DNA of 63,405 nt from positions 1 to 63,405 of the IMG/VR virus record IMGVR_UViG_3300030044_000021; one strand, given 5' to 3'. Shown here piece after piece: positions 9,509 through 56,701 of the stretch. The notes beneath the pieces were generated by a model. The model saw only the letters and a program-made list of their open reading frames with translations. It was not told where the DNA came from and ran no database searches. A program made the translations under genes and the position numbers. This DNA comes from a virus. Within the stretch, counting starts at the first letter, position 1; each line of letters opens with the position of its first letter.

Positions 9509-9516
9509 TAAAGATT
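9509..9516 (-). promoter_or_regulatory. late-type AATCTTTA element
   Basis: AATCTTTA on the minus strand, with the ATG of the 8785-9504 gene starting 4 bases later. The same octamer precedes tail and baseplate genes elsewhere in the window. No ribosome site lies between them. Confidence 0.5.
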
Positions 9517-9628
9517 GCATTATTTATGCCATAAGTATCTATCTATTTGATTTCTAACATCAATTTATCAATATTAGCTCCAGATCCTAATATTAGGACT
9601 TCTTAGTTCTTTCCCCTAATATTTTCTA

Positions 9629-9657
9629 TTGACATTTCTATTAACCTTCTATAGACT
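9629..9657 (+). promoter_or_regulatory. sigma70-type promoter upstream of a structured leader
   Basis: TTGACA (9629-9634), 17-base spacer, TAGACT (9652-9657). The predicted start is near 9664, just before the structured segment at 9674-9743. Confidence 0.7.
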
Positions 9658-9673
9658 ACTTCAATGGCTATGA

Positions 9674-9743
9674 GCAGGGAGTAGCTCTGAAACACTACTT
9701 TAAACGCGCCTGCACAATGCCCAGGCCAAAGTGGCCGCCCTGC
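9674..9743 (+). ncRNA. structured leader, possible RNA switch
   Basis: Outer helix GCAGGG/CCCUGC (9674-9679 with 9738-9743) encloses hairpin AGUAG/CUACU (9680-9684 with 9695-9699). It also encloses two mutually exclusive hairpins, GCCUG/CAGGC (9708-9712 with 9722-9726) and GGCCA/UGGCC (9724-9728 with 9732-9736). The ribosome site AAGGAG follows at once. No known class recognised. Confidence 0.5.
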
Positions 9744-9759
9744 AATTTAAGGAGAATGT

Positions 9760-9987: not shown

Positions 9988-9996
9988 GGAGGAAGT

Positions 9997-10454: not shown

Positions 10455-10455
10455 A

Positions 10456-11376: not shown

Positions 11377-11383
11377 GAGATTT

Positions 11384-22027: not shown

Positions 22028-22055
22028 TTGACAAATTCGATTTAATATGTAAATG
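22028..22055 (+). promoter_or_regulatory. promoter for the IMPDH/GMPR-family gene
   Basis: TTGACA (22028-22033) and a weaker TAAATG (22050-22055) with 16-base spacing. The ribosome site GAGGA (22065-22069) and the ATG at 22077 follow. Confidence 0.5.
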
Positions 22056-22076
22056 TTGATATATGAGGATTACTTA

Positions 22077-23222
22077 ATGAAAGAACTATTGACTTTTGAC
22101 GATGTTCTGATTACACCTAAATTTTCTACCATTACTAGCCGAAAAGACGTGGATTTAACCTCTAGTCCAGATGGATTGCCCTACTTGAGATTGCCAATCA
22201 TTTCAGCTAACATGGATTCTGTAACAGGCCCGGAAATGGCGAGAGCGATGCTAAAGGGCGGTGGAATTGGATGTCTTCATAGATTCTGTTCTATAGAAGA
22301 CAATGTAACAATGTTCAAGGACAGCTATCTAGTAGAGCCCCGTGATCGTATGGGACCTCAATTACCCATGGTTTCGATTGGATTGGGCAATGCGGAGCTT
22401 GAAAGAGCTGAAGCTTTATCTCATGCCGGAGCTTATACTGTGGTGATTGATGTGGCTCATGGAGCGAGTATGAGCGTGGTGAATCAGGTTAAAGAGCTTC
22501 GAAAACTTTTTAAAAAAGATTTGTCCATTATTGTCGGTAATTTTGCCACCGCAGATAGCGTGGAAGATTTCATGCACCATTTAGACGGTGGATATGAGAT
22601 TGAAGGGATAAAAGTTGGTATCGGACCAGGAAGCGCCTGTTCTACACGCACTCAGACTGGCTGCGGATATCCCCAATTGAGTGCAATTTTGGAAATTTCT
22701 GAAGTACTTTTTGATACCAATATTTCTGTCATCGCTGACGGAGGAATGAAAAATTCTGGGGATGTTGCAAAAGCCCTAGCCGCAGGTGCTCACATGGTTA
22801 TGAGCGGCTCTTTCTTTGCTGGGACTGACGAGAGTCCTGGAGAGAAAGTTTGGAAAAGCAAAGGTTTCTATTATCCTGAAAAGTCGGTGTACCCAGTAAG
22901 AATGACTGATGGCCTGCAAGTTTTGGATAAAACCTACCCGATTGATCTGCCAGCTTTCAAGAAATACCGTGGATCAGCCTCCAAGGAATCCTATGAAGCA
23001 CAAGGGAAGGAAGCTCAATGGCGTACTGCTGAAGGTGAAGCTTTTTATGTACCTTATAAAGGATCTGTTAAGGACATACTCCAGAATATTGAGGGTGGAC
23101 TAAGAAGCGCGTTCTCTTATGTGGGAGCGACCAATTTGAAGGAGTTCCAAGAAAAGGCACAATTTGTAAGAGTTTCTGGTGCGGGATATTTCGAAGGAAC
23201 ACCGCATGGAAAGAAGTCATGA
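22077..23222 (+). CDS. IMP dehydrogenase/GMP reductase family enzyme without CBS domain
   Basis: 381 residues. TIM-barrel purine enzyme. Motifs are MKELLTFDDVLITPKFSTI at the N-terminus, PIISANMDSVT, and GIGPGSACSTRTQTGCGYPQ with catalytic C188. Further motifs are DGGMKNSGDVAKALAAGA and the phosphate loop, then the mobile-flap region and EGEAFYVPYKG. The TGCGYPQ and YRGSASKES features lean to GMP reductase (GMP to IMP); the ending VRVSGAGYFEGTPH leans to IMP dehydrogenase. No room exists for the usual CBS pair. The start is set at 22077 by GAGGA; an earlier ATG at 22053 falls in the promoter. Its role is probably to shift guanine and adenine nucleotide pools. Confidence 0.85.
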   Translation: MKELLTFDDVLITPKFSTITSRKDVDLTSSPDGLPYLRLPIISANMDSVTGPEMARAMLKGGGIGCLHRFCSIEDNVTMFKDSYLVEPRDRMGPQLPMVSIGLGNAELERAEALSHAGAYTVVIDVAHGASMSVVNQVKELRKLFKKDLSIIVGNFATADSVEDFMHHLDGGYEIEGIKVGIGPGSACSTRTQTGCGYPQLSAILEISEVLFDTNISVIADGGMKNSGDVAKALAAGAHMVMSGSFFAGTDESPGEKVWKSKGFYYPEKSVYPVRMTDGLQVLDKTYPIDLPAFKKYRGSASKESYEAQGKEAQWRTAEGEAFYVPYKGSVKDILQNIEGGLRSAFSYVGATNLKEFQEKAQFVRVSGAGYFEGTPHGKKS

Positions 23223-25458: not shown

Positions 25459-25628
25459 ATTTTTTAAGAGCCTATTTCGGAGCATTATACTATATATTGA
25501 GCTTTTTAGGCTTTTTTTATCTTATCTTTGCGCTCGCGTTCCAGCAGGAATTCGCCCCTTTATATTTTCTTTACATAGGATTTGTGGCAGCTCTGGGAGG
25601 CCCCCTTAGAATTTGGTTTCGTTTGTAG
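25455..25628 (+). CDS. two-helix membrane protein (57 residues)
   Basis: MNFLRAYFGALYYILSFLGF continues into a long hydrophobic helix; a second helix is LYFLYIGFVAALGGPLRIW. It is the last gene before the late structural block. Size and topology would suit a holin, but the lytic enzyme is 18 kb away and no gene linkage supports that role. Confidence 0.6.
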   Translation: MNFLRAYFGALYYILSFLGFFYLIFALAFQQEFAPLYFLYIGFVAALGGPLRIWFRL

Positions 25629-25659
25629 ATACGTGATTTTATAGACTTATTTAGTTTAA

Positions 25660-25667
25660 TGATATAA
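25660..25667 (+). promoter_or_regulatory. TGATATAA element
   Basis: TGATATAA, 33 bases before the AATCTTTA at 25693. The same pair with the same 33-base offset occurs at 51588/51621. Possibly the -35-side or an upstream part of a late promoter. Confidence 0.35.
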
Positions 25668-25675
25668 TAGGGATA

Positions 25676-25708
25676 TCTAGGGTTAAAGTCGGAATCTTTA
25701 ACCTAGGA
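25676..25708 (+). promoter_or_regulatory. late-type AATCTTTA element within an inverted repeat
   Basis: AATCTTTA at 25693-25700 lies in a hairpin-forming repeat, CTAGGGTTAAAG to CTTTAACCTAG. The hairpin could also act as a terminator for the upstream operon, though only a short T-stretch follows. The tape measure gene starts at 25753. Confidence 0.5.
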
Positions 25709-25752
25709 TGTTCCTATTTTTATTAATTGTTTACTAAACGTAAGGTCTTGAA

Positions 25753-35426: not shown

Positions 35427-38400
35427 ATGGCAACGACACCTACTCTCCCACAGCCACAGTCATACGATGCAATTTTGGGAGCAATGCTGGCAACATTCGC
35501 TAGTAAGACCGGAATCCCTTCCGTATCAGTTGGGTCCGCCTCCCTTTCACTATTGGAAACCGTGGCTCTTGCTGTTAGTCGTTCAAGCGGTGACGTTTTT
35601 CAGACCATATTGAATGCAAGTATTGATTATGCCACGGGAAATTCGCTTCAAGCCATAGCAGCTGAGTTTGGTATAACTCCCACCATTGAACAACCGGCCA
35701 CTGGGTTCGTAAATGTTACGGACTCTTCCTTCCTAAAAGTTTCAACCTCAGTTTACCCTGGCGCAGCTGCTGTTAACCAAGGATCTGTCATAGTTTATGC
35801 AGGGTCAAATGTAGGTTTTCCCGCAACGGGCAGTATTTATGTTGGTAGAGGAACGAATGACTCAGAAGGCCCACTTCCTTACACCTCCATCGTACCGATT
35901 GGTAACTATTTTCAATTTAATCTTTCAAGTCCTACCCAAAAATTTCATAATGTAAACGAATCCATTATTTTATCGCAGGGAGGTAATCGGATTGTTGGAG
36001 TTAACACCGTAGTTATCGCTCCTTCAAATGGTTTGCAGCCAGATACCCAGTATTCAGTTACACAGCAAGGCGTAATATTAGACGGTGAAGTCACGGTAAA
36101 TAACGTGCCTATCACAGCTCTCGTTCCAGGTGCCAACGGGAATGTCTCTCCTTCTGCTATTAGCACTTTTTCAAGTGCCCCATTTAACGGCGCCGTAGTT
36201 ACAAATTCACTTGCGACTAGCGGCGGAAAAGATCCAGAAACAGCCGATCAGCTCAGAACTCAAATTAAACTAGTTTTATCATCAATTGGACTCGGTACGG
36301 CTACTGCAATTAAAAATTCGCTTATAGGCGCTAGTTCTACAGAAGAATCCGCTACAATTGCATCAGATTCCCTGATTACAAATGCAGATGGATCTTCTAC
36401 GGTATTCATTAATACGGGATCTAGTCTTCCTTATGAAGCTAAGACGGCAGGTGTAGCTATCGAGCACATCATAGATTCCGCTATTGGAGGAGAGGATTAC
36501 TTTCAATTGGCTACAGGCGGTACCCAAGCCCCAGTTGCAAAAGCTTTTTTGCAATCAACAGATGCAAGTCCATTTGCCGTTCTAGGGGGATATGTTCTAG
36601 CGGTAACAGTTGGTGGAGTCACCACTCAACATACATTTTTGACCAGTGACTTCCAGGCTCCTGGTGCTGCTACGGCATACGAAATTTGTGCCTCTATAAA
36701 TGCTGATTTTAATTTGAATTACGAAGCTACTACTGCTGGAAGTGGAGCCTATGTAGTCATAAGAGCGATAGCAGAATCAAATGAAGAAATTCAAATCGCA
36801 ACTCCAGATCCCTCTACCCTCACAGACGCGAATAATTTCTTAGGATTTCCTACAACATTGAATGAGACACTAAGACTTTACAAAAATAGCACACTTCTTA
36901 GCGAAGATGGGAATACGGCCTCTGTGTTTTCTCAGCCACAAGGGTTGTGGTCTAATTCCATCGCCAATGGCGATACCCTGATTGTTTCAGTGGACGGAAC
37001 TGCACCGATCACCTACACTATTTTGGATACCGATTTTATCGCTACTGGTTTATACACCACGGTGAGCCCATCCAATTCGTTGGCTTCGTGGGCAGAAGTT
37101 TTCAATAACAAAATTACAGGCGTAACGGCTACCGTAGTAGGCACAGAAATCGAATTGTCGAGCAATCTCGGCAAGAATAATAGAGCCCAAGTTACTATAG
37201 GTTCCGGTTCTACTTTAGTTACCAAAAGCATGTTCGGTGGTTCCCAAGCCCTGTCTTCTCACGGCGCAGCAGCAGATTATACACTTGACAGAAATACTGC
37301 ACAAATACAATTAGCCACCCCTTTGGTTGCCGGTGACAATCTCGTTGCTGGGAGCACCAATACTAAGGGTACCATAGAAAGCTCTTCTTTTGCAGGCTCT
37401 TCAGTGACCCTTGCTTCCGAAGGATATATCTGGCTTTCTATAGATGAACCCGTAACATTTATTCCTTCTGGGGCTTCTCCTGGAGGACTATTGTCCGTAA
37501 CTGCCAATACGGGTGCGCATACAGTTAGTTACACCTCATCTATAGCAAATTCTTTTTCAAATGTAAATCCCGGAGACTACCTGATCGTCTGGTCCTTGGA
37601 GTTGGACGCCCCCAATAGATTGGAAGGTAGAGTTCATTCTATCTCTACTACCACACTAACTAATGATACTCTGACCGTTCTAGTTACTGCTGCCGAAGCA
37701 GCAGCTGTGGTCCCTCAAACTAACGTTTTGTACAAGGCTGGTTTTGTAATAGTTAGAACGTCCTATGTACCTCAAAAATTCAATGTTCCTGCAGGCACCC
37801 TGACTTTGGATGCTATTGCGGCATATCTACAGCTACAAACCGATTCTTTGAACTTCAGCGTTTATGCAGAGCAGTTCCTATTAATTGGAACTAACACTCT
37901 TAATACGGACGGTTCTGTTACCGTAGTTACTTTCGATAATGTTGGGGGTCAACTAGGCTTTACCGTAGCTCAAACTAGCACTAGTAGCTATCCTATCATA
38001 GCTCATCAAGACACAGCAAGTGCTTATTTGCCTGCTTTCTTCCATAGCAAGATCACATCTGATACCGTTGCCTATCCACCTGATACTTCCCTTACAACAT
38101 TTACGTCTCAAATCAGCGTTGCTGGCAGAGAACCAGACGAAATAGTCACTTTTCTTAACCCATACGGTGGCATAGATGATGAGCAGCCCGATAATGAAGT
38201 GGTTCAAGAAACGGTCATAGCCGGAACATCGATTTCTATTACTTACGATCCAGACGTAAGAAGACTCAGAACTAATGATCGGTATTTCTTGTCCAACCCG
38301 CTGTCATTTGGGAACAATGACTCGTTGGTAGCTATTATTGACAATAACCCAGTCAACAATACGTTCCAGGTACCTCTCTACAGAAGAGCTTTAACCAACA

Positions 38401-43115: not shown

Positions 43116-43541
43116 ATGGCAGCGCCAGTAACGATAACAGGGGCATTAATCACCATTTATTGGAATAATGCTTTATATAAAGAAGTAGCCGACGTTTCTT
43201 TTACCATATCGTATGGGGAGGAAGAGATTTGGGGTATCGATAGTCCGTATCCTCAAGAAATTGCCGGTGGTAAAATCTCAGTTAGCGGAAATATTCGCGG
43301 CTTTCGTTTAAAGATGAGTGGTGGCCTTCAAGGTAAAACTCTACGCCCCCTTTTTACTGATGTGTCAGCTGCACCTTACGTCAGTTTAAGAGTCACCGAT
43401 CGTAGCACGGCAGAAGATATCGTATTTATTCCACAGTGCAAGGTTACTTCTGAAGATCATACCGTTCCTACAAAGGGGACTTATCGCCTTAACTTTTCAT
43501 TTAAGGGCATCGTTCCGTATTTTGCACTAGACCGTTCTTAA
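43116..43541 (+). CDS. tail tube-like or baseplate-junction protein (141 residues)
   Basis: Beta-rich: GALITIYWNNALYKEVADVS, then GGKISVSGNIRGFRLKMSGG and CKVTSEDHTVPTKGTYRLNF. The pattern of a symmetric beta-sandwich with a conserved Gly-rich hairpin resembles tube and tube-initiator proteins. The call is tentative. It is the last plus-strand gene of the baseplate run; its stop abuts that of the minus-strand gene 43542-43916. Confidence 0.45.
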   Translation: MAAPVTITGALITIYWNNALYKEVADVSFTISYGEEEIWGIDSPYPQEIAGGKISVSGNIRGFRLKMSGGLQGKTLRPLFTDVSAAPYVSLRVTDRSTAEDIVFIPQCKVTSEDHTVPTKGTYRLNFSFKGIVPYFALDRS

Positions 43542-43916
43542 TTATTGAATTTCACTATTTTCTCTTTTATAATATTCTAGAGATTTAGTCAATTCTTTGT
43601 CCATATTTTCATTTCTAATAGATTCCACATCTATAATAGCAAATCCAGGTTTGATAGCTTTTTTCAACCCTTCGTTTGGACCAACATTAAGTAGCTCAAA
43701 TTCTACAACGGTCTTGATATGTTTTTCAGTAGCCCAAACCATTTCCTTTTTTATTTTTTTCTTTAAAGAATTTTTCAAAGTTTCATAGTCCTTCTCAGAA
43801 AAATAAACATGACACGGATACACGACTGTTTTGCTATTATTAACTGCTCCTAGTTTAACTAGCAGATCGTCCGGATACATAGCAAGCATTTTTTTAGTTA
43901 ATTTAACGACTTTCAT
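43542..43916 (-). CDS. hypothetical protein (124 residues)
   Basis: MKVVKLTKKMLAMYPDDLLV, then CHVYFSEKDYETLKNSLKKK, basic and helical, ending EYYKRENSEIQ. Follows the lytic transglycosylase with a 14-base overlap, so it may serve lysis, for example as a regulator or chaperone; no sequence evidence supports a specific role. No transmembrane segment was seen, so it is not a holin or spanin. Confidence 0.6.
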   Translation of the reverse strand: MKVVKLTKKMLAMYPDDLLVKLGAVNNSKTVVYPCHVYFSEKDYETLKNSLKKKIKKEMVWATEKHIKTVVEFELLNVGPNEGLKKAIKPGFAIIDVESIRNENMDKELTKSLEYYKRENSEIQ

Positions 43917-44370
43917 AGCTTAACTCCATTTTGTCAATAAAATAATTCGTGTTGTTACTATCTAGTACGTGTTGCAGACGTTTGTCAAGCTTTTGTTTTA
44001 CGAGATTGATGTATTTATGATTCGCAGCAAAACCAGGACGTTTCTTGCTTTCAATAAACGAACCTGCGTTATAGGCCGCAACTGCTTTATATACATTTCC
44101 GCTATAACGATCTAGTTGATATTTTAAATATAGAGCGGCGTACTTTGCTCCAATCATAGGATTTCTAAGTTCCATAGATTTTCCTTTAAAACCTAAAAAT
44201 CTAGCTGTGTCTTCTTTAACTTGGCACACCCCATACGATGGGCTACCATTGTCGTATTCTGCGAAATCTAATGAAAAATCTTTGGATTCGTGTGCACAAA
44301 TTGCATAAAGTAGTGTTGTTGATACATGAGCTGCCTTTGCTGCCGCTGCCATAATGGATAAATAGGTCAT
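43903..44370 (-). CDS. lytic transglycosylase (SLT-type), candidate endolysin
   Basis: 155 residues, a single SLT domain. Catalytic E28 lies in ICAHESKDFS. Motif SPSYGVCQVK (43-52) and AVAAYNAGS (near 96-104) are the conserved lysozyme-like fold elements. It cuts peptidoglycan between MurNAc and GlcNAc. It lacks a signal peptide, so it would need a holin, unless it acts as a virion-associated enzyme. Promoter at 44389-44417 and an AGGAGG site. Transcribed opposite to the late genes around it. Confidence 0.85.
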   Translation of the reverse strand: MTYLSIMAAAAKAAHVSTTLLYAICAHESKDFSLDFAEYDNGSPSYGVCQVKEDTARFLGFKGKSMELRNPMIGAKYAALYLKYQLDRYSGNVYKAVAAYNAGSFIESKKRPGFAANHKYINLVKQKLDKRLQHVLDSNNTNYFIDKMELSYESR

Positions 44371-44388
44371 ATGTATCCTCCTATAACC

Positions 44389-44417
44389 AGACTACCAAGC
44401 TTCTAGCAAAAAGTCAA
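44389..44417 (-). promoter_or_regulatory. sigma70-type promoter for the lytic transglycosylase
   Basis: TTGACT (44417-44412), 17-base spacer, TAGTCT (44394-44389) on the minus strand. The AGGAGG ribosome site lies at 44382-44377, close to the predicted start, so the leader is very short. Confidence 0.7.
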
Positions 44418-44428
44418 CAAAAAAGCGC

Positions 44429-44436
44429 AATCTTTA
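44429..44436 (+). promoter_or_regulatory. late-type AATCTTTA element
   Basis: AATCTTTA with the ATG of the 44442 gene 5 bases later and no ribosome site between them. It suggests a leaderless late transcript. Confidence 0.5.
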
Positions 44437-44441
44437 CAGAT

Positions 44442-45194
44442 ATGGATATTATAGATGATTTTAAGAGCTATATTGACGGTAATGGACTAAATTCGCCCCA
44501 GCCCGGATCTTGGGCATCAAATCAAAGTGGGTCAGATAATGGTACAATGTATACCTCTGAGATGTATATTATTCTTAAGAAAAATGGTCAACTTACTGTA
44601 TCAGACGAACTTAGCTTTGAACATATGATAGATAGGTGTATTGGGCCTGAAGGTTTGCTCAATCGTGTTCCTGTAGGTCAAAATGACGGTCAAGACGGTC
44701 CAGATAATATTTTAGCGGTACTTAATGGTTGCATTGAATTAAAAAATACCGATATCCCCAGAACACTATTTTGGGCTTGCATAAAATACCTAGGTTTTTT
44801 GAATAATGTGAATCCTGGAACGAAGACTTTGCAAAGTTTTCTTGTTAGACAGCCGCAGTTGGTGGCTGCTATGGTATCTGCAGCTTTCCCATCATTGCTA
44901 AATCCTTTTCACTGGTTGATTAGAATCCTGTCTTTTCCAGTTTACTTTGTAGCTGCAGGTTCTATTGCCATTTCTTGCATAGGAACTCCTACTGGAGATA
45001 CCGATTCTAGACGTTTAGCATGGCATTTGCAAAACAACACTAAGAAAACTAGCTTTATGTGTTTGTTAGCTTCTTTGATATGGCTTCGCAGACTGGCTAA
45101 GGATTACCCCAATAAGATGAACGATGTGGCTGCGATCTACTACAATCCTAAAGGATTGGACCAAAATCCGTATTCGAAGTGGTGGGTGACTTAA
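44442..45194 (+). CDS. hypothetical protein with hydrophobic segment (250 residues)
   Basis: Features include MDIIDDFKSYIDGNGLNSPQ, YTSEMYIILKKNGQLTV and NDGQDGPDNILAVLNGC. The residues about 160-185 (HWLIRILSFPVYFVAAGSI) are hydrophobic. The layout suggests an alpha/alpha-barrel-like hydrolase, but I recognise no family. It follows the AATCTTTA element without a ribosome site. Confidence 0.5.
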   Translation: MDIIDDFKSYIDGNGLNSPQPGSWASNQSGSDNGTMYTSEMYIILKKNGQLTVSDELSFEHMIDRCIGPEGLLNRVPVGQNDGQDGPDNILAVLNGCIELKNTDIPRTLFWACIKYLGFLNNVNPGTKTLQSFLVRQPQLVAAMVSAAFPSLLNPFHWLIRILSFPVYFVAAGSIAISCIGTPTGDTDSRRLAWHLQNNTKKTSFMCLLASLIWLRRLAKDYPNKMNDVAAIYYNPKGLDQNPYSKWWVT

Positions 45195-45409
45195 CGCTCC
45201 CTAGTTTCTCTTTTGGTCTCAACACGATCTACGTTTAAAGGGCAGGAATCTAGATCTTCTTGGGATTGAGGAACCCTGATTTGGTAGTCCTGACCTACAA
45301 AAAGGTCTCCGTTTCTCAATAATATCCAGATCTCTTTGCCCGATTTTTGGGCTATAGTTCCACATTGTCCTGTTCCACAAATAACAACTTGGCCTTCTAC
45401 AAATTCCAT
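45191..45409 (-). CDS. hypothetical protein (72 residues)
   Basis: MEFVEGQVVICGTGQCGTIA, then WILLRNGDLFVGQDYQIRV; a small beta-barrel (KOW/SH3-like) style and a charged tail, VDRVETKRETRER. Converges with the 44442 gene and overlaps the stop of the zinc-ribbon gene. Possibly an RNA- or protein-binding module. Confidence 0.55.
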   Translation of the reverse strand: MEFVEGQVVICGTGQCGTIAQKSGKEIWILLRNGDLFVGQDYQIRVPQSQEDLDSCPLNVDRVETKRETRER

Positions 45410-45801
45410 TATTTACTTTCTTCTTTCTTTATGATCCCACGAACACTCGGAGTGTATTTCTTGCTTTTGGTACGATTTGTGCAACCATTACATTTACGAT
45501 AATAATAGGTTTCATTTATTTTATTAAATAGAAAAATCTCCAACAAACCGGTTCTACACTGGTGGCAACGCCACTCTTCTTTCATTTTATCAAGAATCTC
45601 TTGTCCCTCATTTTTCCTTTCGGAATAATGTTCTTCTATGATTTCACGTACTTGATCATAACGATCTAGATCTATGCGAGCTAATAGTTTACGAAGGCGA
45701 CTATTTTCACGCTTAAGTGCTTGATTTTCCTTAACAAATCTCTGTTCCCTACTAATTTCACCAGTACGGTCCTTGGATTTCCCCACTGTGGAATACCTCA
45801 T
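45409..45801 (-). CDS. coiled-coil zinc-ribbon protein, possible regulator
   Basis: 130 residues. A helical, basic N-terminus (RFVKENQALKRENSRLRKLL) looks like a leucine-zipper-type coil. WRCHQCRTG and RKCNGC, about 25 residues apart, form a four-cysteine zinc ribbon with a basic loop (NRTKSKKYTPS). This arrangement is common in transcription factors. It has a leaderless early-type promoter and sits beside two oppositely oriented AATCTTTA elements, so a role in late gene control is an attractive hypothesis. Confidence 0.6.
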   Translation of the reverse strand: MRYSTVGKSKDRTGEISREQRFVKENQALKRENSRLRKLLARIDLDRYDQVREIIEEHYSERKNEGQEILDKMKEEWRCHQCRTGLLEIFLFNKINETYYYRKCNGCTNRTKSKKYTPSVRGIIKKEESK

Positions 45802-45807
45802 GTCTTG

Positions 45808-45837
45808 ACTCTATCATAGGTAAAGATTGGAAGTCAA
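45808..45837 (-). promoter_or_regulatory. promoter for the zinc-ribbon gene (leaderless), with embedded AATCTTTA
   Basis: TTGACT (45837-45832), 18-base spacer, TAGAGT (45813-45808) on the minus strand. The ATG (45801) follows after 6 bases. The spacer contains AATCTTTA at 45828-45821. Confidence 0.6.
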
Positions 45838-45838
45838 G

Positions 45839-45864
45839 TGATATAAAACAAATAGGAATCTTTA
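45839..45864 (+). promoter_or_regulatory. TGATATAA plus late-type AATCTTTA element
   Basis: TGATATAA at 45839-45846 and AATCTTTA at 45857-45864, upstream of the tail-fibre gene at 45930. The intervening leader has no strong ribosome site. Confidence 0.45.
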
Positions 45865-45929: not shown

Positions 45930-48656
45930 ATGGCTATTATTAGGAGAGTTAATCAGCTTTCTCAAATGCGAGAAGAAGTCTCGGACATGCGTGCGATCGA
46001 AAGCGCTGCGTCTGCAGACTTTGATCTAGTCGCAGAGGCTCTCATATCTGGACCAGATACCCCCTATATTATCAATGGTTTCGCTATAAACATGTCTGCT
46101 GCCCCTATTACGGGCGCCGCCTCTAATTTGCAGGTCATCGTTGCCAATAGCTCACTACTACATACCACCGCTTCTCAATCAGGTACTTTCTTTCTAGTCC
46201 CAACTGGTACTCCTAATGTCACCCTGAATGCTGCCACAGTCGCCAACGTGATTGGGTCTTTTGTCCCTAATGCCAACAACTATGTTGGGATAGACTATTA
46301 CCGTTTTCAAGATGCTACGACCGATACTCAGCGTTATTTTTGGGACCCCACCAGTGACGAAGAAGACGAGGGTATAGCTCCAGCGGCCATAACCATGAAC
46401 TACAAGTTCGTGATCACGGCCACCCTTTGGGCAACAAATGTTTTGCCTTTGGCTATAATCCAAACAGATTCTAGCAATAACGTCGTTTCTATTACTGATT
46501 CAAGACCACTTCTATTACGCTTAGGAACTGGTGGAGCAAGTCCAAACCCATTCCACACGTTTCCATGGCCTGAAGGTCAGACCGAAAATAACACTACCAC
46601 TACTTCCAATTCCAGCAATCCATTTTTTGGTGGCGATAAAGGCATAACAGATCTCAAGGATTGGATGGACGCCGTAATGACCCAATTGCTGGGCCTTAAT
46701 GGTGGCCCTTATTGGTACTCATTCACATCCAGTAACGTTGGGTCGGTTCCTCTTCTTAGAGAAGATGCTACAGCAACTGTAATGACTGGAACTGGTGCCA
46801 TCACTCATAGCGCTACTACAGCCGGCCTCATAAACTGGTCTAGTCCAATAAATCTGAAGATAATTGGTGCAAATTTAAGTTATCAAATCGCAACCAATCC
46901 TTCTGGTACTACTGTCACTTTAAGTGATAATGAAGTAGCCTACATAGAACTTACCAGAGATGTTCCCGTTGCGCCAAATCTGATTTGGACCAACTCAAGC
47001 GCTGTCGTAACTTCGGTTGGAAATGTTGCTTGGACTTCTGGACTTTATAGCGTCACAGCAAATGGATTTGGTGATTGGATTCGTCTGGCTTCTAGCACTC
47101 ATGCTGGATATTACCAGATTCAAACCATTAACTCTTCTTCTCAAGTAACTTTAACTCAAGTATTTACAGGATCTAGTACAAGCTCTTCAGGTGCTCCCTC
47201 TTTGTACGCCTACGGCTCATATACTTTGCCAGGCGTTACGGGTGGCTTGAGAGATATTCAACTTGCAGGTCGCGGTGCGGTACCAATCAGCCCAAGCACC
47301 TTCTGGCTATTTGTTCGAGAAGATGATGGCGGAGCAATTCCTAGAGTTTATGTTAAATGGCTAGGAACTGATCTTCAACAAGGTGATTCCGAAGAAATTT
47401 CTGGTCCACAGCTCCAAAATGTCTTGACCTACGTTGGTAGCCAAATTGAGTCTTCCACTACTCCTTTTTACGTATCTGCCTACAATATATATGAAGGTAA
47501 CGGTCCTACGGTCTCAAAACAAGTTACCGACGTTACAACTGGCGATGCTAGTACATTGACATCTGATCAGTATTTCTTAATTTATTCTGCTGGCGGCAGA
47601 GAGTATTACGTTTGGGTTAACAAAGATGGAACCGGCATAAATCCAATGCCAGTTGCCAACGCCACTGGAATTGAGTGGGATGTAGCTACTGGGCAAACAT
47701 CTACTCAAACCGCTGCCGCGTTGGTCACAGCTTTAAATGGAACTTTTTTCAAAGATTTCACTGCAACTAACATTGCTAACGCAGTTACTATTACCAACAA
47801 CTCTGCTGGTACTACGTTTTCTCCAGCCGATTTTAATATTGGCCCTCCGTTTGCAATTTTTGTTTCCACATCCGGAACTGGTGTTGGAAACTTCATCATT
47901 CAAGATGGTGATAATCTAACTCTAGCTATTAAAAAGTTAGATCAAGAAATATCAAGCATTATAGAATCGCTAGATAATCCTACTTATGACGAAGTAGTAG
48001 AGATCGTTGCTTCAGGAGCTACTCCCCCAACATCTATAACTGGTCCAGTTACCCCTGGCACGAATATTTTCCTTCCGAACAATACTAGAGAATCCAATGC
48101 AGTCCAGTATTACACGGTAGGAAAAGGAACTCTACAAGTTTTCTTAAATGGCCAGTTCCTAGACTTAGAGAGCGGCGCCTATACCGAAGTCGGCACATTA
48201 GATGCTCCAAGTAACGAAATTCAGATCCATTACGGTCTTGTGGTGGGCGATGAGCTTGAACTTAGATTAAGTGGTGGTGGCGGTGGAGCTGGTGGCGGAG
48301 GCACTCCCGGTCCTCAAGGTCCTCCAGGAGTCGCCGGTCCTACGGGTGCGCCTGGCTTTAATGCAGCTGGCGGTCCCGTGCCAGTTTCTGTTAAGACCAG
48401 TTCATACTCTGTTTTAACCACGGACTGTTTCTTAGCAGCAGATGCGACAACTGGAACTCTGACATTTACGTTACCTACAGCGAGCGGCAACACAGGGAGG
48501 ATTTTTTATATGAAAAAAATCGATTCTTCAGCCAATGCGATGGTTATTCAGGGTAACGGCGGAGACTTGATTGACGGTCTGAGCACCGTATCCACTATGG
48601 TTCAATACGAATCATTCTCAATAATTAGCACTGGAACTGGTTGGTACCTCTTCTAA
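45930..48656 (+). CDS. tail fibre with collagen-like segment
   Basis: 908 residues. N-terminal anchor-like MAIIRRVNQLSQMREEVSD and a first domain of about 200 residues resembling phage fibre heads. Beta-rich Ser/Thr/Asn repeats fill the middle. A collagen-like Gly-x-Y segment (TPGPQGPPGVAGPTGAPG, residues about 791-808) precedes a C-terminal domain of about 100 residues (VKTSSYSVLTTDCFLAADA), probably a trimeric tip. The likely role is host receptor recognition. Start ATG 45930. Confidence 0.7.
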   Translation: MAIIRRVNQLSQMREEVSDMRAIESAASADFDLVAEALISGPDTPYIINGFAINMSAAPITGAASNLQVIVANSSLLHTTASQSGTFFLVPTGTPNVTLNAATVANVIGSFVPNANNYVGIDYYRFQDATTDTQRYFWDPTSDEEDEGIAPAAITMNYKFVITATLWATNVLPLAIIQTDSSNNVVSITDSRPLLLRLGTGGASPNPFHTFPWPEGQTENNTTTTSNSSNPFFGGDKGITDLKDWMDAVMTQLLGLNGGPYWYSFTSSNVGSVPLLREDATATVMTGTGAITHSATTAGLINWSSPINLKIIGANLSYQIATNPSGTTVTLSDNEVAYIELTRDVPVAPNLIWTNSSAVVTSVGNVAWTSGLYSVTANGFGDWIRLASSTHAGYYQIQTINSSSQVTLTQVFTGSSTSSSGAPSLYAYGSYTLPGVTGGLRDIQLAGRGAVPISPSTFWLFVREDDGGAIPRVYVKWLGTDLQQGDSEEISGPQLQNVLTYVGSQIESSTTPFYVSAYNIYEGNGPTVSKQVTDVTTGDASTLTSDQYFLIYSAGGREYYVWVNKDGTGINPMPVANATGIEWDVATGQTSTQTAAALVTALNGTFFKDFTATNIANAVTITNNSAGTTFSPADFNIGPPFAIFVSTSGTGVGNFIIQDGDNLTLAIKKLDQEISSIIESLDNPTYDEVVEIVASGATPPTSITGPVTPGTNIFLPNNTRESNAVQYYTVGKGTLQVFLNGQFLDLESGAYTEVGTLDAPSNEIQIHYGLVVGDELELRLSGGGGGAGGGGTPGPQGPPGVAGPTGAPGFNAAGGPVPVSVKTSSYSVLTTDCFLAADATTGTLTFTLPTASGNTGRIFYMKKIDSSANAMVIQGNGGDLIDGLSTVSTMVQYESFSIISTGTGWYLF

Positions 48657-49165: not shown

Positions 49166-49173
49166 AATCTTTA
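49166..49173 (+). promoter_or_regulatory. late-type AATCTTTA element
   Basis: AATCTTTA upstream of the tail-fibre gene at 49209. A GAGGT ribosome site (49196-49200) lies 8 bases before the ATG, so this transcript has a leader of about 30 bases. Confidence 0.5.
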
Positions 49174-49208: not shown

Positions 49209-51521
49209 ATGTCTACTTACAGTAAGTTTTTAGAATTAGTCAATGGCGTAGCACGAACTATTGACTTGTCAGCAAATACTCTCCAGGTCCAAGCTCTCGA
49301 AGTTGGAACAACACTTCTCTCACAAACAGGAGCCTATAGCTCCTTTACTGGGACGATTCCTGGAACGTCTACTTCCGTAACGATTACGGCAAATAACCCT
49401 GGAGCAGCCGGCAACTCAATTGCCCTAGTGTTCAATGGTTCGACTACGATTGCAGCTCAAATCGCTGCTTGGAACCTAGCACACTCCAACAACATGGCCA
49501 CCCTGACTAGCGGTAGTGGGTCACAAACCCCAACTGCAGGAACAACCACTCTTACTAGTGGGGTTGATGCAGGGTCTTCTCTCATTGGAGATACGGCTAC
49601 TTATAACTTTTTCACCCCTACTGCTCCAACAGTCATGGGCGCATTGGCTGGTATCGATAACGCCCTCGCCAACCTTTCCACGAGTGCTATCACTAGCTTG
49701 ACCGGAGATGGCACAGCGAGTGGTCCGGGAGCCGCTGCCTTTACTTTGGCGACTGTCAACCTAAATGTGGGCAGTTTCGGTTCTTCAACATCCATTCCCA
49801 CCTTTACTGTAAATGCTAAGGGATTGATCACTGCTGCTAGCGGTAATGCCGTAGTTGCTCCTGCTGGAACTCTCACTGGCTCTACTTTGGCATCTAACGT
49901 ACTCTCTTCCAGCTTAACTTCCGTTGGGACAATCACCAGCGGTACTTGGAATGGTACTACGATTGCAATAGCAAACGGCGGTACTGGCCAGACTTCAGCT
50001 GCAGCTGCATTTAACGCACTTGCCCCAGCTACTGCAACTGGTGGATTGATCTTAGGAACCGGTACCAATACTTACGGCAACCTTGCTATAGGTACTTCTG
50101 GGTACGTTCTTACTTCCAATGGGTCGACCGCATCGTGGGTAGCCCCTGCAACGAGCGGTACCGTAACTTCTGTCGGTTTAGCTGATGGTTCTAGTACACC
50201 AATCTACACCATCTCTAACAGTCCTGTTACCAGCACTGGTAATCTGACCTTTACTCTTAACACTCAGTCTGCAAATAAAGTATTTGCTGGTCCATCTAGC
50301 GGATCTGCTGCTCAACCAGGATTCAGATCTTTGGTTTCTGCAGATATCCCAGATTTGTCTGCTACTTACGTAACCCAAACCGAAGTTGGTTCTGCTAACG
50401 GCGTAGCTTCTTTGGATGGTTCCGGTAAAGTTCCTCTTAGCCAATTGCCTTCTAGCGTCATGGAGTACAAAGGAGCATGGGATGCTTCTACCAACACTCC
50501 AACTCTTGCTGACGGCACCGGAACTGCTGGTTGGGTTTATCGCGTATCTGTCGCTGGTACCCAAAATCTTGGTAGCGGTTCACAAAGCTACTATGTTGGC
50601 GATTTCGTCATCTACAATGGCACTATTTGGCAGCGTTCCCCTCTTGCTGACGGCGTTGTTTCCGTAAACGGTGCAACTGGCGCTGTTACTGTTAACGCTA
50701 TCAATCAGTTAACTGGTGACGTTACGACTTCTGCTGCTACTCAGTCGCAATCTGAAGCTGCTACTATCGCAGCCATCCAAGGTAACACGGTTACCGGTAC
50801 GACTGGTACTGGAAACGTTGTTTTCAGTGCAAGCCCTACTCTCACTGGAACCATTACGGCTGCTGCTGCGAACTTCTCTGGTGCAATTTCTGCTTCTAAC
50901 TTCTCCGGAAGTTCAAGCGGAACCAACACTGGCGACCAAACGATCACCTTGACTGGTGATGTAACTGGTTCCGGTACTGGTAGTTTTGCAACTACGATTG
51001 CTGCAAATGCTGTTACTACTTCTAAGATCAACAATGCTGCCGTAACTGCTGCTAAACTCGGCGCTGTCACGGACGGAATTACTACCGATCAAAATGGAGC
51101 TGGAAGCACTATCGAAGTGTTGTCTTCTCCTAAAAATGCCACTTCTGAAATTTCAGATCAGGCTTTGTCGGCAAGTACTTTGTATGCCTTGAGATATGAA
51201 CGTACAACTGATGGCGGCGGCACTGCTGGCCATATGTGGAAAGCTGATAACGATACCACCACTAACGATAACTTCTACGTTATCGGTCTAGCTTACCCAG
51301 CAGGTGCAGTTTCTGCTGGTGGAGCAGTCACTGTGACCGAAGAAGGTTATATCAATGTACCTTCGCATGGATTCACCCCAGGACTTCCACTCTATCTGGG
51401 TGCATCTGGCGCTTGTACCACTACCGCTCCTACAGCAACTCTTTCGGCTGTTGTTAAGGTTGGTATGGTTAAAGATGCCAATAACATCATGGTCCAAGTT
51501 CAAACTATGGGAATAAATTAA
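49209..51521 (+). CDS. tail fibre protein
   Basis: 770 residues. Opens MSTYSKFLELVNGVARTIDL, a conserved anchor also found at the start of the 51690 gene. A long repeat region (GTVTSVGLADGSSTPIYTI and similar) makes up the shaft. A C-terminal domain (residues about 645-770, with ADNDTTTNDNFYVIGLAYPA) recurs near the N-terminus of the next fibre. Function: host attachment. Confidence 0.75.
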   Translation: MSTYSKFLELVNGVARTIDLSANTLQVQALEVGTTLLSQTGAYSSFTGTIPGTSTSVTITANNPGAAGNSIALVFNGSTTIAAQIAAWNLAHSNNMATLTSGSGSQTPTAGTTTLTSGVDAGSSLIGDTATYNFFTPTAPTVMGALAGIDNALANLSTSAITSLTGDGTASGPGAAAFTLATVNLNVGSFGSSTSIPTFTVNAKGLITAASGNAVVAPAGTLTGSTLASNVLSSSLTSVGTITSGTWNGTTIAIANGGTGQTSAAAAFNALAPATATGGLILGTGTNTYGNLAIGTSGYVLTSNGSTASWVAPATSGTVTSVGLADGSSTPIYTISNSPVTSTGNLTFTLNTQSANKVFAGPSSGSAAQPGFRSLVSADIPDLSATYVTQTEVGSANGVASLDGSGKVPLSQLPSSVMEYKGAWDASTNTPTLADGTGTAGWVYRVSVAGTQNLGSGSQSYYVGDFVIYNGTIWQRSPLADGVVSVNGATGAVTVNAINQLTGDVTTSAATQSQSEAATIAAIQGNTVTGTTGTGNVVFSASPTLTGTITAAAANFSGAISASNFSGSSSGTNTGDQTITLTGDVTGSGTGSFATTIAANAVTTSKINNAAVTAAKLGAVTDGITTDQNGAGSTIEVLSSPKNATSEISDQALSASTLYALRYERTTDGGGTAGHMWKADNDTTTNDNFYVIGLAYPAGAVSAGGAVTVTEEGYINVPSHGFTPGLPLYLGASGACTTTAPTATLSAVVKVGMVKDANNIMVQVQTMGIN

Positions 51522-51689: not shown

Positions 51690-54600
51690 ATGAGTGTTTA
51701 TTCGAAATTTCTACAACTCCAAAACGGTGCCCCTAGAACTGTAGATCTATCTCTCAACACCCTAAGTGTGTTGGGATTACAAGTTGACGGAGCTACTTCT
51801 GGAAATCTTACCCAATTTGCTTCCGCCACTACTACCAGCTATGCTGTGTTCTGGCCAAATGCCCAGGGAACAGCCGGGACATTTCTTAAAAACGATGGCT
51901 CTGGGAACTTAAGTTGGTCTTCAGTGGCCACTTCTTCTGCAATATCAAATACTTTTATTGCTGGTGAATCTTTCACGGCAGATACTTCTTACATTGTTCG
52001 ATGGGGAATGAACTCTCTCTCAGAATCAACAGATGAAGTTTACAAAGCCGATTACAATACTGTTACGGCAGACGAGTTTTGGGCGATTGGTATAGCTTTC
52101 TCTACCACCAGCGTATCCGCTGGACAAGGCATAACGGTTTACTCATTCGGTTCTTACACTCTAGGCTCCAGTGATACTGATTTTGCCACAGGCGATATCG
52201 GCAAGCCAGTTTGGCTGACTTCCGCAGGAGCTTTTAGTACGACTGCCCCAACTGGTACTAACGAATCCGATCTAAAAATTGGTATAGTGATGAGCACTAC
52301 TCAAATTTGGATCGATGGCCAAATGATGGGTGTTGGGAACGTCCCAAGTGGCGCTGGTCCAAATCCAGCTTCAGTTTCTGAAGGCGGTACTGGAAACACT
52401 TCTTTTACACCTTACGCGGTACTAGCAGGTGGGTTGACTTCTACAGGCGCCCTACAGCAGGTTTCAGGTTTAGGTACTAGCGGATATGTTCTCACTTCAA
52501 ACGGTCCCGGAGCCCTTCCTACCTGGCAAGCAGGCGGTTCGGCATTAGTCTTCTCAGATTCTTTAGTAAATACTGGTGGAACGGTAACTTTAGTTAACGA
52601 TTCCGCAACCCCAGGTAATACGAAATATTATGGTACGAACGGTTCGGGAACGTTAGGTTACTATTCGATTCCAAGTACTGGGGTCACTTCAGTTGGGTTA
52701 GTTGATTCTACTGGATTGTTTAATGTTACAAATACTCCGATTACTAGCACTGGTAACCTAACTCTTTCTAGTTTTCAAAATCAAGCCGCAAATACGTTTT
52801 TGGCTGCACCTAATGGATCATCAGGAGCACCTACATTTAGAACTATTGTTGTAGCTGATATTCCTACGTTAAATCAAAATACAACGGGTACAGCTGCCAA
52901 TATCACTGCTACTAGTAACAGTACCCTTACTACTCTTTCAAGCCTTTCTTTGCCTGGATCGCAAGTATCTGGAAATATTTCTGGGAATGCTGCTAATATC
53001 ACAGCTACCTCCAATTCCACGCTAACCACCCTTTCTTCTTTGAGTCTGCCAACTTCTCAACTTTCTGGCACAGTTTCTCTTACAACACAAGCATCTGGAA
53101 CTTTGCAAGCAGGTCAATTCCCAACATTAACTGGTGACGTAACGACTACTGCTGGGTCATTAGCTACCAGTTTAGTGGCTACTTCTAACGGAACTCTCAC
53201 TAGTCTGTCTGCTCTTACCACAGCTTCTAGTCTTGCGTCTATCGGAACCATTACGACCGGTGTGTGGAATGGAACTGCAATAGGACCAACACATGGTGGT
53301 ACCGGACTAAGTTCGTACACAACTGGTGACACTTTGTACGCTAGCGCGACCAACGTGTTGTCCAAGTTGGGCATTGGTTCCACAGGACAAATACTTACAG
53401 TGTCTGGCGGAATCCCATCTTGGGCAAGTCCTGCCACTAGTGGTACCGTTACTTCTGTCGCCCTCTCGGACGGAAGTTCAACACCCATTTATTCTATTTC
53501 TGGAAGTCCGGTAACTAGTTCCGGAACTTTAACTTTTACCCTTAGTACTCAAACTGCCAATACTGTGTTTGCGGGGCCATCTACTGGATCGGCAGCTCAG
53601 CCTACCTTTAGGTCTCTCGTTTCCGCAGACATTCCAAGCTTGTCGGCTATATATCTACCTCTTGCTGGTGGAACGATGTCTGGCGCTATCAATCTTGGCG
53701 GATTTACACCTACAAATAGTAGCACTCCTGTTAATCCAAATGATTTGGTCAACAAAAGCTATGTTGACAATTTTATCAACGCTACTTCTTGGAAAAATGC
53801 AGTTTTGGTAGCTACTACGGCTAACATTACCCTGTCCGGTGAGCAAACAATTGATGGGTTCACCACAAGCTCTTCTCGTGTTTTAGTTAAAAATCAGTCC
53901 ACAGCAGCAAATAACGGGATATACGTTTCCGCTTCTGGAGCGTGGGCACGTTCTTCAGATATGAATACTTGGGCTGAAGTCCCAGCGGCTGCTGTATTTG
54001 TACAAGAAGGTACTGTCAATGCCGATTTAGGTTTTGTCTGCACTTCCCAACCAGGCGGGACACTTGGCACGACTGCTATCACTTGGGTCCAGTTTTCTTC
54101 AGCAGGAGCATACTCGGCAGATGGAATAACACTTCAATTAGTAAGTGGAGTTTTCTCCGTTAAAAATGCGGGAATTACTGAAACACAAATCGCTTCCACT
54201 GCATTCTCCACTACCGGCGCTATTTCAGGTGGAAGTGGTACAAAAATTTCAGTTAATGTTGATAATTCTACTATAGATATCAATGGCAGTGATCAGCTAG
54301 AAGTCAAGGCTGGTGGAATTACAAATACTCAGGTATCTGGCTCTGCAGCAATTGCTTTCTCCAAATTAGCATCTCTTCCAAGTGCGGATATCTTGCTCGG
54401 TAATGGATCAAATGTTGCTACAGCAACTGCTGTAACTGGAGACGTGACCATCTCGAATACTGGGGTAACTTCACTAGTAGCGACTACTAATTCCACCCTT
54501 ACCACTCTTAGTGGGCTAACTACGGCTTCGGCTCTGGTGTCCGTTGGAACTATCACAACTGGTACGTGGAATGCTACCACCATCGCTGTGAATCATGGCG

Positions 54601-55520
54601 GTACTGGCCAAACGACACTGACAAATCACGGTGTCCTGATTGGTGCTGGAACCTCTGCCATTACTCAACTGGCTGCGGCTGCTGCTGGAACACTTCTTGC
54701 TGGTCAAGGAACTAGTTCAGATCCTTCGTTTACAGCAACTCCTACTTTAGGTATCAATGCTGTCCAAACAGGTCAACTTAGTTTCGCTGTTACAGGAGTA
54801 GGTGGAGCATCCATCACCGTACAAAACGGTGGTGCAACTTCCGCATACAATTTCAATCTCCCAACAACCGTTGGTAGTGCTGGCCAAGTCCTAACATCCC
54901 AGGCTGGCGGTTCAACGGCCATGACTTGGTCTACTCCGTTCACTAACCCAATGACCACATTGGGTGATATTATATATGAAAATGCAACTCCAGCACCAGC
55001 CAGACTTGCAGGTAATACCACGGCCACAAAACAATTCCTAACTCAAACTGGAACGGGATCGGTATCTGCCGCTCCAGCATGGGGAGCTTTAGCTTCGGGG
55101 GACATTCCGAATAACGCGGCGAATACGTCTGGGACTGCTGCAAGTGTATCTGGAACCAACGTCATTACCAATACTAACTTGGCTCAAATGCCGGCTGATA
55201 CTATCAAAGGTAACAATACTGGTAGTACGGCTAATGCTGCAGATCTAACTGCTGCTCAAGTTCTAACGATGTTAGGGATATTTAGTGGTAAAACGACTTT
55301 GACGAGTGGTGCAACCAGTAAGGCTATCACGCTCAGTACGGCATACGCTAGTACCGCCTATTCTGTGACTGCCAATTTCTTAAATACCACGGATACGAAT
55401 CCGCAATTCCAACCTATCGACGTAACAGCTCAGGCTACTACTGGATTTACTTTGAAATGGAATATGCCAACGGATACGGCAAATTATGTCTTGTCTTGGA
55501 CAGCAATACTGAATAATTAA
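51690..55520 (+). CDS. tail fibre protein (largest, 1276 residues)
   Basis: Opens MSVYSKFLQLQNGAPRTVDL, paralogous to the 49209 anchor. The head (residues about 88-215) resembles the C-terminal domain of the 49209 fibre. The shaft includes two exact 20-residue copies of ANITATSNSTLTTLSSLSLP encoded with mostly different codons. The C-terminus NTTDTNPQFQPIDVTAQA to NMPTDTANYVLSW is a module repeated in the next protein, so it may be the receptor-binding tip. It follows a terminator and an AATCTTTA pair. Confidence 0.8.
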   Translation: MSVYSKFLQLQNGAPRTVDLSLNTLSVLGLQVDGATSGNLTQFASATTTSYAVFWPNAQGTAGTFLKNDGSGNLSWSSVATSSAISNTFIAGESFTADTSYIVRWGMNSLSESTDEVYKADYNTVTADEFWAIGIAFSTTSVSAGQGITVYSFGSYTLGSSDTDFATGDIGKPVWLTSAGAFSTTAPTGTNESDLKIGIVMSTTQIWIDGQMMGVGNVPSGAGPNPASVSEGGTGNTSFTPYAVLAGGLTSTGALQQVSGLGTSGYVLTSNGPGALPTWQAGGSALVFSDSLVNTGGTVTLVNDSATPGNTKYYGTNGSGTLGYYSIPSTGVTSVGLVDSTGLFNVTNTPITSTGNLTLSSFQNQAANTFLAAPNGSSGAPTFRTIVVADIPTLNQNTTGTAANITATSNSTLTTLSSLSLPGSQVSGNISGNAANITATSNSTLTTLSSLSLPTSQLSGTVSLTTQASGTLQAGQFPTLTGDVTTTAGSLATSLVATSNGTLTSLSALTTASSLASIGTITTGVWNGTAIGPTHGGTGLSSYTTGDTLYASATNVLSKLGIGSTGQILTVSGGIPSWASPATSGTVTSVALSDGSSTPIYSISGSPVTSSGTLTFTLSTQTANTVFAGPSTGSAAQPTFRSLVSADIPSLSAIYLPLAGGTMSGAINLGGFTPTNSSTPVNPNDLVNKSYVDNFINATSWKNAVLVATTANITLSGEQTIDGFTTSSSRVLVKNQSTAANNGIYVSASGAWARSSDMNTWAEVPAAAVFVQEGTVNADLGFVCTSQPGGTLGTTAITWVQFSSAGAYSADGITLQLVSGVFSVKNAGITETQIASTAFSTTGAISGGSGTKISVNVDNSTIDINGSDQLEVKAGGITNTQVSGSAAIAFSKLASLPSADILLGNGSNVATATAVTGDVTISNTGVTSLVATTNSTLTTLSGLTTASALVSVGTITTGTWNATTIAVNHGGTGQTTLTNHGVLIGAGTSAITQLAAAAAGTLLAGQGTSSDPSFTATPTLGINAVQTGQLSFAVTGVGGASITVQNGGATSAYNFNLPTTVGSAGQVLTSQAGGSTAMTWSTPFTNPMTTLGDIIYENATPAPARLAGNTTATKQFLTQTGTGSVSAAPAWGALASGDIPNNAANTSGTAASVSGTNVITNTNLAQMPADTIKGNNTGSTANAADLTAAQVLTMLGIFSGKTTLTSGATSKAITLSTAYASTAYSVTANFLNTTDTNPQFQPIDVTAQATTGFTLKWNMPTDTANYVLSWTAILNN
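52896..53051 (+). repeat. two protein-identical, codon-diverged repeats in the fibre gene
   Basis: The 20-residue unit ANITATSNSTLTTLSSLSLP occurs at 52896-52955 and 52992-53051, 96 bases apart. Sixteen of the 20 codons differ between copies. Confidence 0.85.
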
Positions 55521-55531
55521 TAGGGTAATAT

Positions 55532-56629
55532 ATGGCATTTAAACCAATCGATAGTCGCCAAATAGTATTAAGAGGTCTTCTCTCAGAAATAGCCGCGACT
55601 GCAGGTTTGACTCTTCAAGAAGTTCTTACTTCTATTAATTTTCAATTAGAGCCACCTCTAAATGTGGTCCCCTTTATCAACCTGGGTCACGAAGTTCTTA
55701 TAGCCACGAGTCTACCTTCTAATCCAGATTCAAATATCCAGAGAAGCATCTCTTACATTAATAATACGGTACCTTTTTTATCGTCAGCAACTGCAACAAT
55801 ACCAACTTCACCTACTGGAAATGTTACCACTTCTACTGGTGCTAGCGTAGCCCTGTCAGTTACTAGTGGCCAATATCAGCAGGTTTTACTGTGGTTGGAT
55901 ACTTCCTCTAACGTGGGAATATCTGTCGGGCCTTCTTTTTCGGCTGGCTCTCTCGCAGCTGCAGTTAATGAAACTTCTGAACTACCTCTCCCAACGGCAA
56001 ATACTCTTCCATTTGCATACATAACCGTATTCAACAATGCTGGAACGGTCTCAGGTCTAACTCAAAGTAACATAACACAATTGGTCGGTGGTGGTAGCTC
56101 AAGCGGGACTTCAGTTACCCCAGCTAGGGTAGCCGGTACTTTCCCAGTTGGCCTAGGTGCTACTTCCGTGACAGTGCCACTATCGGTGGACCAAATCAGT
56201 AATAGTTTTGTAGTATTGGCCCAATTCACGAATCTTTTAGATCCTTTCAGCGGAGTGGAATACCAGCCTATTACCATAACCGCTAAGACCTCTGGACATC
56301 TTACTAGTAGCTTTACGGCTACCTGGAACTATCCTACAAATACCGGAGATTACGCGATAGATTATGTGGTAAGCGCAGCTATATCTCAAATAGGGGAGTA
56401 TCCTATAGGAAGTGGAGCGACAACGCTTACCATTTCTCTGCCTACCCCTCTAGCCACAGGAGATTATGTGGTTTTGGCAGAATTCACAAATAGTACAGAT
56501 AGCAACCCACAATTTCAACCTATTTTGATTAGGAACAAAAGCTCTTCCTTTTTTACAGTTGACTGGAATATGCCACTAGACACCTCCAATTACAAACTTT
56601 CGTGGCAGTTGGCAAGTTATCAACCATAA
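55532..56629 (+). CDS. tail-fibre tip-like protein (365 residues)
   Basis: The N-terminal portion includes MAFKPIDSRQIVLRGLLSEI and is rich in beta strands. The C-terminal half carries two copies of the NPQFQPI...NM/NYP..TxxYxxSW module also found at the end of the 51690 fibre, such as NSTDSNPQFQPILIRNKSS and DWNMPLDTSNYKLSW. It may be a separately encoded receptor-binding tip or a chaperone for fibre assembly. Confidence 0.65.
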   Translation: MAFKPIDSRQIVLRGLLSEIAATAGLTLQEVLTSINFQLEPPLNVVPFINLGHEVLIATSLPSNPDSNIQRSISYINNTVPFLSSATATIPTSPTGNVTTSTGASVALSVTSGQYQQVLLWLDTSSNVGISVGPSFSAGSLAAAVNETSELPLPTANTLPFAYITVFNNAGTVSGLTQSNITQLVGGGSSSGTSVTPARVAGTFPVGLGATSVTVPLSVDQISNSFVVLAQFTNLLDPFSGVEYQPITITAKTSGHLTSSFTATWNYPTNTGDYAIDYVVSAAISQIGEYPIGSGATTLTISLPTPLATGDYVVLAEFTNSTDSNPQFQPILIRNKSSSFFTVDWNMPLDTSNYKLSWQLASYQP

Positions 56630-56683
56630 GTATGTGAATTTATTTAGTAAAGTAAGCAATTTAGCGTTAAAAGATAAACCGGC

Positions 56684-56701
56684 AATCTTTATGATATATA
56701 A
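56684..56701 (+). promoter_or_regulatory. AATCTTTA followed by TGATATATAA
   Basis: AATCTTTA (56684-56691) and TGATATATAA (56692-56701) adjoin; CTTTATGATATATAAAG also makes a 6-bp hairpin. A ribosome site AGGAG and the ATG at 56719 follow. Confidence 0.5.

Follow-up and report, generated by a model that had tools for sequence, protein, structure and literature searches.

The window analyzed here is a stretch of 63,405 nt of viral DNA (IMG/VR record IMGVR_UViG_3300030044_000021, positions 1 to 63,405) in which the octamer AATCTTTA recurs close to structural genes. This raises the question of what these copies do and which protein reads them. The original prediction regarded nine of them as likely late promoters, possibly bound by a phage sigma factor or by a modified host polymerase. 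We conclude that AATCTTTA is very probably the -10 element of phage late promoters, read on the host core polymerase by a phage sigma factor that lacks region 4.2, and giving leaderless mRNAs where an ATG lies about 12 nt away.

The window corresponds, in reverse orientation, to part of the virus contig IMGVR_UViG_3300029922_000013 (150,858 bp, hereafter G001), and window positions equal 151,444 minus the G001 position. Calling genes on the 63-kb window by itself gave too sparse a set, and whole-genome counts were made on G001, using the output of our own simple gene caller. We compared it with seven further near-complete genomes (155-177 kb), and then with nine more contigs carrying more distant sigma factors and with Mx1, making 18 genomes. 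Among named phages, the cultured Myxococcus phage Mx1 (OR576727) is closest, with a capsid protein 53% identical.

All nine predicted octamers occur where they had been placed, on the strands given, and a tenth copy lies at 63376. Their positions in the window, with the scores of a position weight matrix (PWM), are:

9509..9516 (-), upstream of gene 8785-9438, 17.0 bits; also at the orthologues in G003 and G005
25693..25700 (+), 60 nt before gene 25753-28110, which heads the tail block, 19.7 bits; position kept in G003, G005 and G004, four other relatives having AATCTTAA
32718..32725 (+), 23 nt before the ATG at 32741 of the baseplate gene 32741-35389, 20.0 bits; position kept in G003 and G005
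44429..44436 (+), 13 nt before the ATG at 44442 of gene 44442-45194, 20.8 bits; 12 and 13 nt at the G003 and G005 orthologues
45821..45828 (-), in the promoter of the zinc-ribbon gene 45409-45801, between TTGACT and TAGAGT, 17.4 bits
45857..45864 (+), 73 nt before the tail gene 45930-48656, 24.5 bits; also at the orthologues in five relatives
49166..49173 (+), 43 nt before the tail protein gene 49209-51521, 13.4 bits
51621..51628 (+), 69 nt before gene 51690-55520 (head-decoration/tail-fibre-like), 22.2 bits
56684..56691 (+), 35 nt before gene 56719-59745, 15.9 bits; position kept in G003 and G005
63376..63383 (+), tenth copy, antisense within a DnaB-like helicase gene, below 8 bits

The nine predicted copies thus score 13.4-24.5 bits, whereas we judged the tenth to be a chance match, given its antisense position inside a gene and its low score. 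The copies at 45821..45828 and 45857..45864 form a divergent pair. The first of these, as predicted, sits inside the promoter of the zinc-ribbon gene (window 45801-45830, (-) strand), an arrangement repeated in G003 at 98202 (-) and in G005 at 106246 (+). In these promoters TTGACT or TTGACA and TAGAGT or TATAGT are 18 nt apart with the octamer in between, and they may be readable by both sigma factors.

The number of copies says little in itself. About two had been expected by chance, a figure too low for such AT-rich sequence, since shuffles of the window contain 5.2 copies on average and reach at least ten in 3 of 100 cases. For this reason the raw count is weak evidence, and we dropped it in favor of location and conservation. 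A whole-genome count with a test of intergenic enrichment, which had been suggested along with the prediction, was strongly positive: 20 of the 27 octamers of G001 are intergenic, in a genome where intergenic DNA makes up 11% of the sequence (binomial p = 3e-14). The octamer is found upstream of 20 of the 67 genes of the late blocks (head and tail) and of 1 of the 122 others (Fisher p = 2e-9), the late class resting on homology for a minority of genes and many late-block genes having no assigned function. The single exception outside these blocks is window gene 8785-9438, which codes for an Ig-like domain (He_PIG); this domain fits a virion protein, and the product is probably one. None of the 40 genes in the chaperonin-sigma-replication block of G001, which includes the sigma gene discussed below, is preceded by the octamer.

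The motif is conserved at these places in the relatives. It is the most frequent 8-mer upstream of genes in the eight genomes, where it precedes 81 genes in sense and 22 in antisense orientation. The orthologues of genes with an octamer kept it in 13 of 17 cases in G003 and 13 of 18 in G005, compared with 2 of 87 and 3 of 90 for the other orthologues. A second clade keeps AATCTTWA in the same manner (G002, 11/16 vs 1/73). Motifs obtained de novo for each clade by expectation maximization agree, clade A giving AATCTTTA and clade B AATCTTWW. In both, T is absent at -5 and A at -1, and offset 12 has purines but no C. The search for a conserved PWM among relatives, also suggested at the outset, was therefore strongly positive. 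The A-rich stretch and GC-rich step described before the octamer hold as preferences, with A at 60-72% at -7 to -5, and C at 61% and A almost absent at -1. The PWM has no information content at the place of the -35 box.

Two features escaped the original prediction: in the wider lineage only the core AATCTT is conserved, and this core has a preferred distance of 12 nt to the start codon. Of the 18 sigma-bearing phages, 17 show AATCTT enrichment upstream of genes, Mx1 among them and down to 31% sigma identity. In Mx1 and in all nine contigs with the more distant sigma factors AATCTT is denser upstream than in coding sequence, and across the 18 genomes it is found at 0.8-3.0 per kb upstream of genes vs 0.15-0.86 per kb per strand in coding sequence. 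It is sense-biased in all of them except G018 (some single-genome p-values are only 0.01-0.2, and p-values count related genomes as independent). Pooled, there are 313 sense and 121 antisense occurrences, which places AATCTT fifth of the 4096 hexamers by sense bias, behind Shine-Dalgarno-like hexamers only. In control stretches of unrelated phages we counted 2 sense and 5 antisense copies. Mx1 has AATCTT 12-42 nt before 14 genes of its structural blocks; genes with the 12-nt spacing there include those at 36563, 75289 and 121405. The exception, G018 (IMGVR_UViG_3300023440_000002), has a sigma factor that is 33% identical and no AATCTT enrichment to speak of; its most sense-biased hexamer is TGTATT, perhaps a changed promoter.

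Measured from its first base, AATCTT lies exactly 12 nt ahead of the start codon in 30 genes, 11 nt in 8 and 13 nt in 6. Distances of 0-10 nt are almost absent, those of 14-19 nt are rare, and a wide spread begins at 20 nt. Twelve permuted hexamers gave a mean of 0.29 genes per position at 12-13 nt, where AATCTT precedes 36 genes. A Shine-Dalgarno-like sequence is present in 5 of these 36, compared with 227 of the 297 genes where the motif is farther away. For many of the genes with the 12-13-nt spacing, the start codon is supported by homologues. Promoters of the host type show a comparable geometry. Over all 18 genomes, TTGACA or TTGACT lies 35 nt before the start codon in 22 genes and TGATAT lies 15 nt before it in 24, which would correspond to a sigma70 promoter with the RNA starting at the AUG, and the host-type promoters of these genomes thus look leaderless too. 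At the 12-nt spacing AATCTT falls at -12 to -7, exactly where the -10 hexamer would stand, and since the sigma70-type elements give the same +1, this argues for AATCTT as the -10 element at these positions. AATCTT promoters have no -35 box: a TTGACA-like box lies upstream of 18 of 325 AATCTT sites, close to the 16 of 324 in controls, vs 14 of 81 TGnTATAnT sites.

The candidate reader is encoded outside the window, in the replication block (G001 64796-65842, 348 aa), with orthologues in all seven full-length relatives (52-72% identity). In Mx1 its orthologue (2071-3078), between the helicase and SbcD genes, is annotated as a putative sigma factor. The protein was recognized only through a family profile and this Mx1 neighborhood: Pfam sigma models gave nothing above cut-off on single sequences, and Sigma70_r2 matched the Mx1 protein with an E-value of 9e-4, below the curated cut-off. 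Searched against the PDB, the family profile returned sigma factors in 69 of 69 among the matches listed (best E 3e-6), and the PHROG sigma family was matched in 6/9 cases (best E 2e-9). A predicted model of the protein (mean pLDDT 63.5) gave SigA/RpoD chains in 50 of 50 among the Foldseek matches listed, with a modest best E-value of 4e-3, and also matched a viral SigBFG-like protein (E 4e-14). These matches point to homology with region 2 of the sigma70 family. We found homologues at 61 loci in virus contigs, and among 50,697 phage records a detectable one in Mx1 only. Most stop within region 4.1, with LPxLHRKVLRLKGVxx as their last residues or nearly so; a few distant ones extend about 10-20 residues further, and two or three reads are broken or cut. 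Nearly all thus lack region 4.2, whose helix-turn-helix recognizes the -35 box. The next gene, 082, is conserved beside the sigma gene; it has no Pfam match and is not recognizably gp33-like. A role as a gp33-like partner is unsupported; the product looks GroES-like, by eye only.

In the mechanism we propose, the phage sigma would join the host RNA polymerase core and its region 2 would read AATCTT at -12 to -7. The A at -11 and the T at -7, the bases captured by sigma70, are retained in AATCTT. The promoter would need no -35 box because the sigma ends in region 4.1, without region 4.2. Counted from the first base of the motif, transcription would begin about 12 nt downstream. If an ATG lies at this start site, the late mRNA would be leaderless, and where the motif is at least 20 nt upstream of the gene, a Shine-Dalgarno sequence would be used. 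Applied to the window, this predicts a leaderless start at the ATG at 44442. Motif, placement and conservation, as well as the homology and truncation of the sigma, can be read in the genomes themselves; that this sigma probably reads this motif, where the RNA starts and that it is made late is what we infer. The original reading, late promoters recognized by a phage sigma, is supported by the enrichment, the conserved PWM and a phage-encoded sigma without region 4.2.

Other explanations account for parts of these observations. An AT-rich octamer could recur in AT-rich intergenic DNA by chance, and the window count is indeed only twice the expectation (10 vs 5.2), but the sense bias, the conservation at orthologues, the permuted-hexamer controls and the exact spacing refute this, and we give it practically no credence. 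AATCTT could instead be a translation signal in the mRNA, a ribosome-binding element of a non-Shine-Dalgarno type and no promoter, as the 36 genes with AATCTT 12-13 nt before the start, mostly without a Shine-Dalgarno sequence, might suggest. We consider this very improbable: the majority of copies are 20-100 nt ahead of the start codon, and a normal Shine-Dalgarno sequence stands in between, the 12-nt place is that of the sigma70-type -10 in these genomes, and the motif is restricted to late blocks.

It is less improbable, though still unlikely, that these are late promoters with another reader, either an unrecognized phage RNA polymerase or a host sigma acting with a phage activator that binds AATCTT. 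The link between sigma and motif is correlative, G018 being the case where the sigma is present and the enrichment absent, and some octamers overlap sigma70-like promoters. Yet a search with PF00940 for a single-subunit RNA polymerase matched 0 of 8 genomes (control genomes likewise gave no match), the motif stands in the exact -10 place with A-11 and T-7 kept, and there is no -35 box for a host sigma. A single-subunit RNA polymerase promoter, suggested by a downstream ctatgaGGG, was set aside, as no polymerase was matched (with the control also silent) and the G-run is mostly Shine-Dalgarno. We therefore retain the -10 element read by the phage sigma as the preferred explanation, and sigma G001 64796-65842 as its probable reader.

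Promoters of this kind have been described in other phages. In the excerpts of a study of phiEco32 (PMC8948821), the middle and late promoters read by gp36 have a single element, tAATGTAtA, with the start 6-8 bp downstream, and the sigma gp36 has no homology to region 4. The system proposed here would work alike, also with a single-element promoter. They differ in the element (AATCTT here) and in the phage lineage, and these excerpts do not report leaderless placement for gp36 promoters. The late promoters of T4 have a -10-like element without -35 conservation, read by gp55, a small member of the sigma family with similarity in domain 2 only (PMC7892883, PMC2988020). As with AATCTT, a conserved element stands in the bacterial -10 place without a -35 box, but the late-promoter sequence of T4 differs and no gp33-like partner was found here. 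Comparison of our sigma profile with T4 gp55 using hhalign gave a probability of 0.7%, outside region 2, a single-sequence template being a weak test. The gp34/gp33 system of SPO1 is comparable: SPO1 too is a large myovirus that encodes a sigma for its late genes, and the capsid proteins are remotely similar. Direct comparison of the phage sigma with SPO1 gp34 gave no detectable similarity, and no kinship to either gp55 or gp34 was thus detected. SPO1 late promoters have two elements. Mx1 is the closest case, with a sigma orthologue (35% identity), the same gene neighbors and AATCTT before structural-block genes; it differs by a higher G+C content and keeps the core AATCTT alone. Its announcement paper mentions no promoter. 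In a literature text search for the octamer, the two phage or promoter papers containing it treat other subjects, judging by their titles and abstracts. What appears new is the promoter sequence, the phage lineage and the widespread leaderless late starts, in a kind of system that resembles those of phiEco32 and T4.

More broadly, we lean towards the view that this lineage of 130-177 kb myoviruses couples promoter to start codon. The -10-only AATCTT of the phage sigma and the sigma70-type early promoters would both set the RNA start at the A of the AUG, giving many leaderless mRNAs, including late structural ones, under a sigma that lost its -35-reading domain. A published paper states that phage transcripts often are leaderless, and in this sense leaderless phage mRNA is already known; our searches found no report of leaderless late starts on this scale. 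The many leaderless late mRNAs predicted here would be relevant to the translation of phage structural genes by host ribosomes. The lineage, uncharacterized and with one cultured member (Mx1, on Myxococcus), would offer a concrete and testable late-transcription system, in which start sites can be predicted with single-base precision across many genomes for which RNA data are absent. It would also provide a naturally occurring set of sigma factors that span 31-100% identity and read one core hexamer without region 4.2.

Several further elements were found around these promoters. About 10 of the 62 octamers in G001, G003 and G005 have the sigma70-like TGATATA 23-33 nt upstream (for example at window 25660 and 51588), a fairly fixed distance that would fit a tandem host promoter or an upstream element. 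TGATATA was rejected as a marker of early genes only, as it also occurs outside early blocks. In Mx1, 7 start codons have TAGATCAAC 24 nt upstream, and this may be a leader element or a second class of promoter. Genome-specific upstream repeats occur in G002, G006 and G010, namely CCTGTCTGGGGCT (8-9 copies), the palindrome GCTATTAGC and GGAATTAAC (10 copies).

Genes for homing endonucleases or similar proteins lie 12-13 nt behind AATCTT in G001 (25511-26539 and 59701-60720), G011 (25470-26171) and Mx1 (48198-48626), as if these mobile genes brought their own late promoter. G001 also encodes a phage chaperonin of the Cpn60/GroEL family (60781-62547). Another of its genes (43228-45066), with an octamer at its head, codes for a protein of 612 aa that has an ice-binding-like domain. 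Finally, the gene at window 22053-23222, which adjoins genes for ribonucleotide reductase, RNA ligase and polynucleotide kinase, matches a phage 'dehydrogenase' family and resembles, by eye, IMPDH/GMP reductase.
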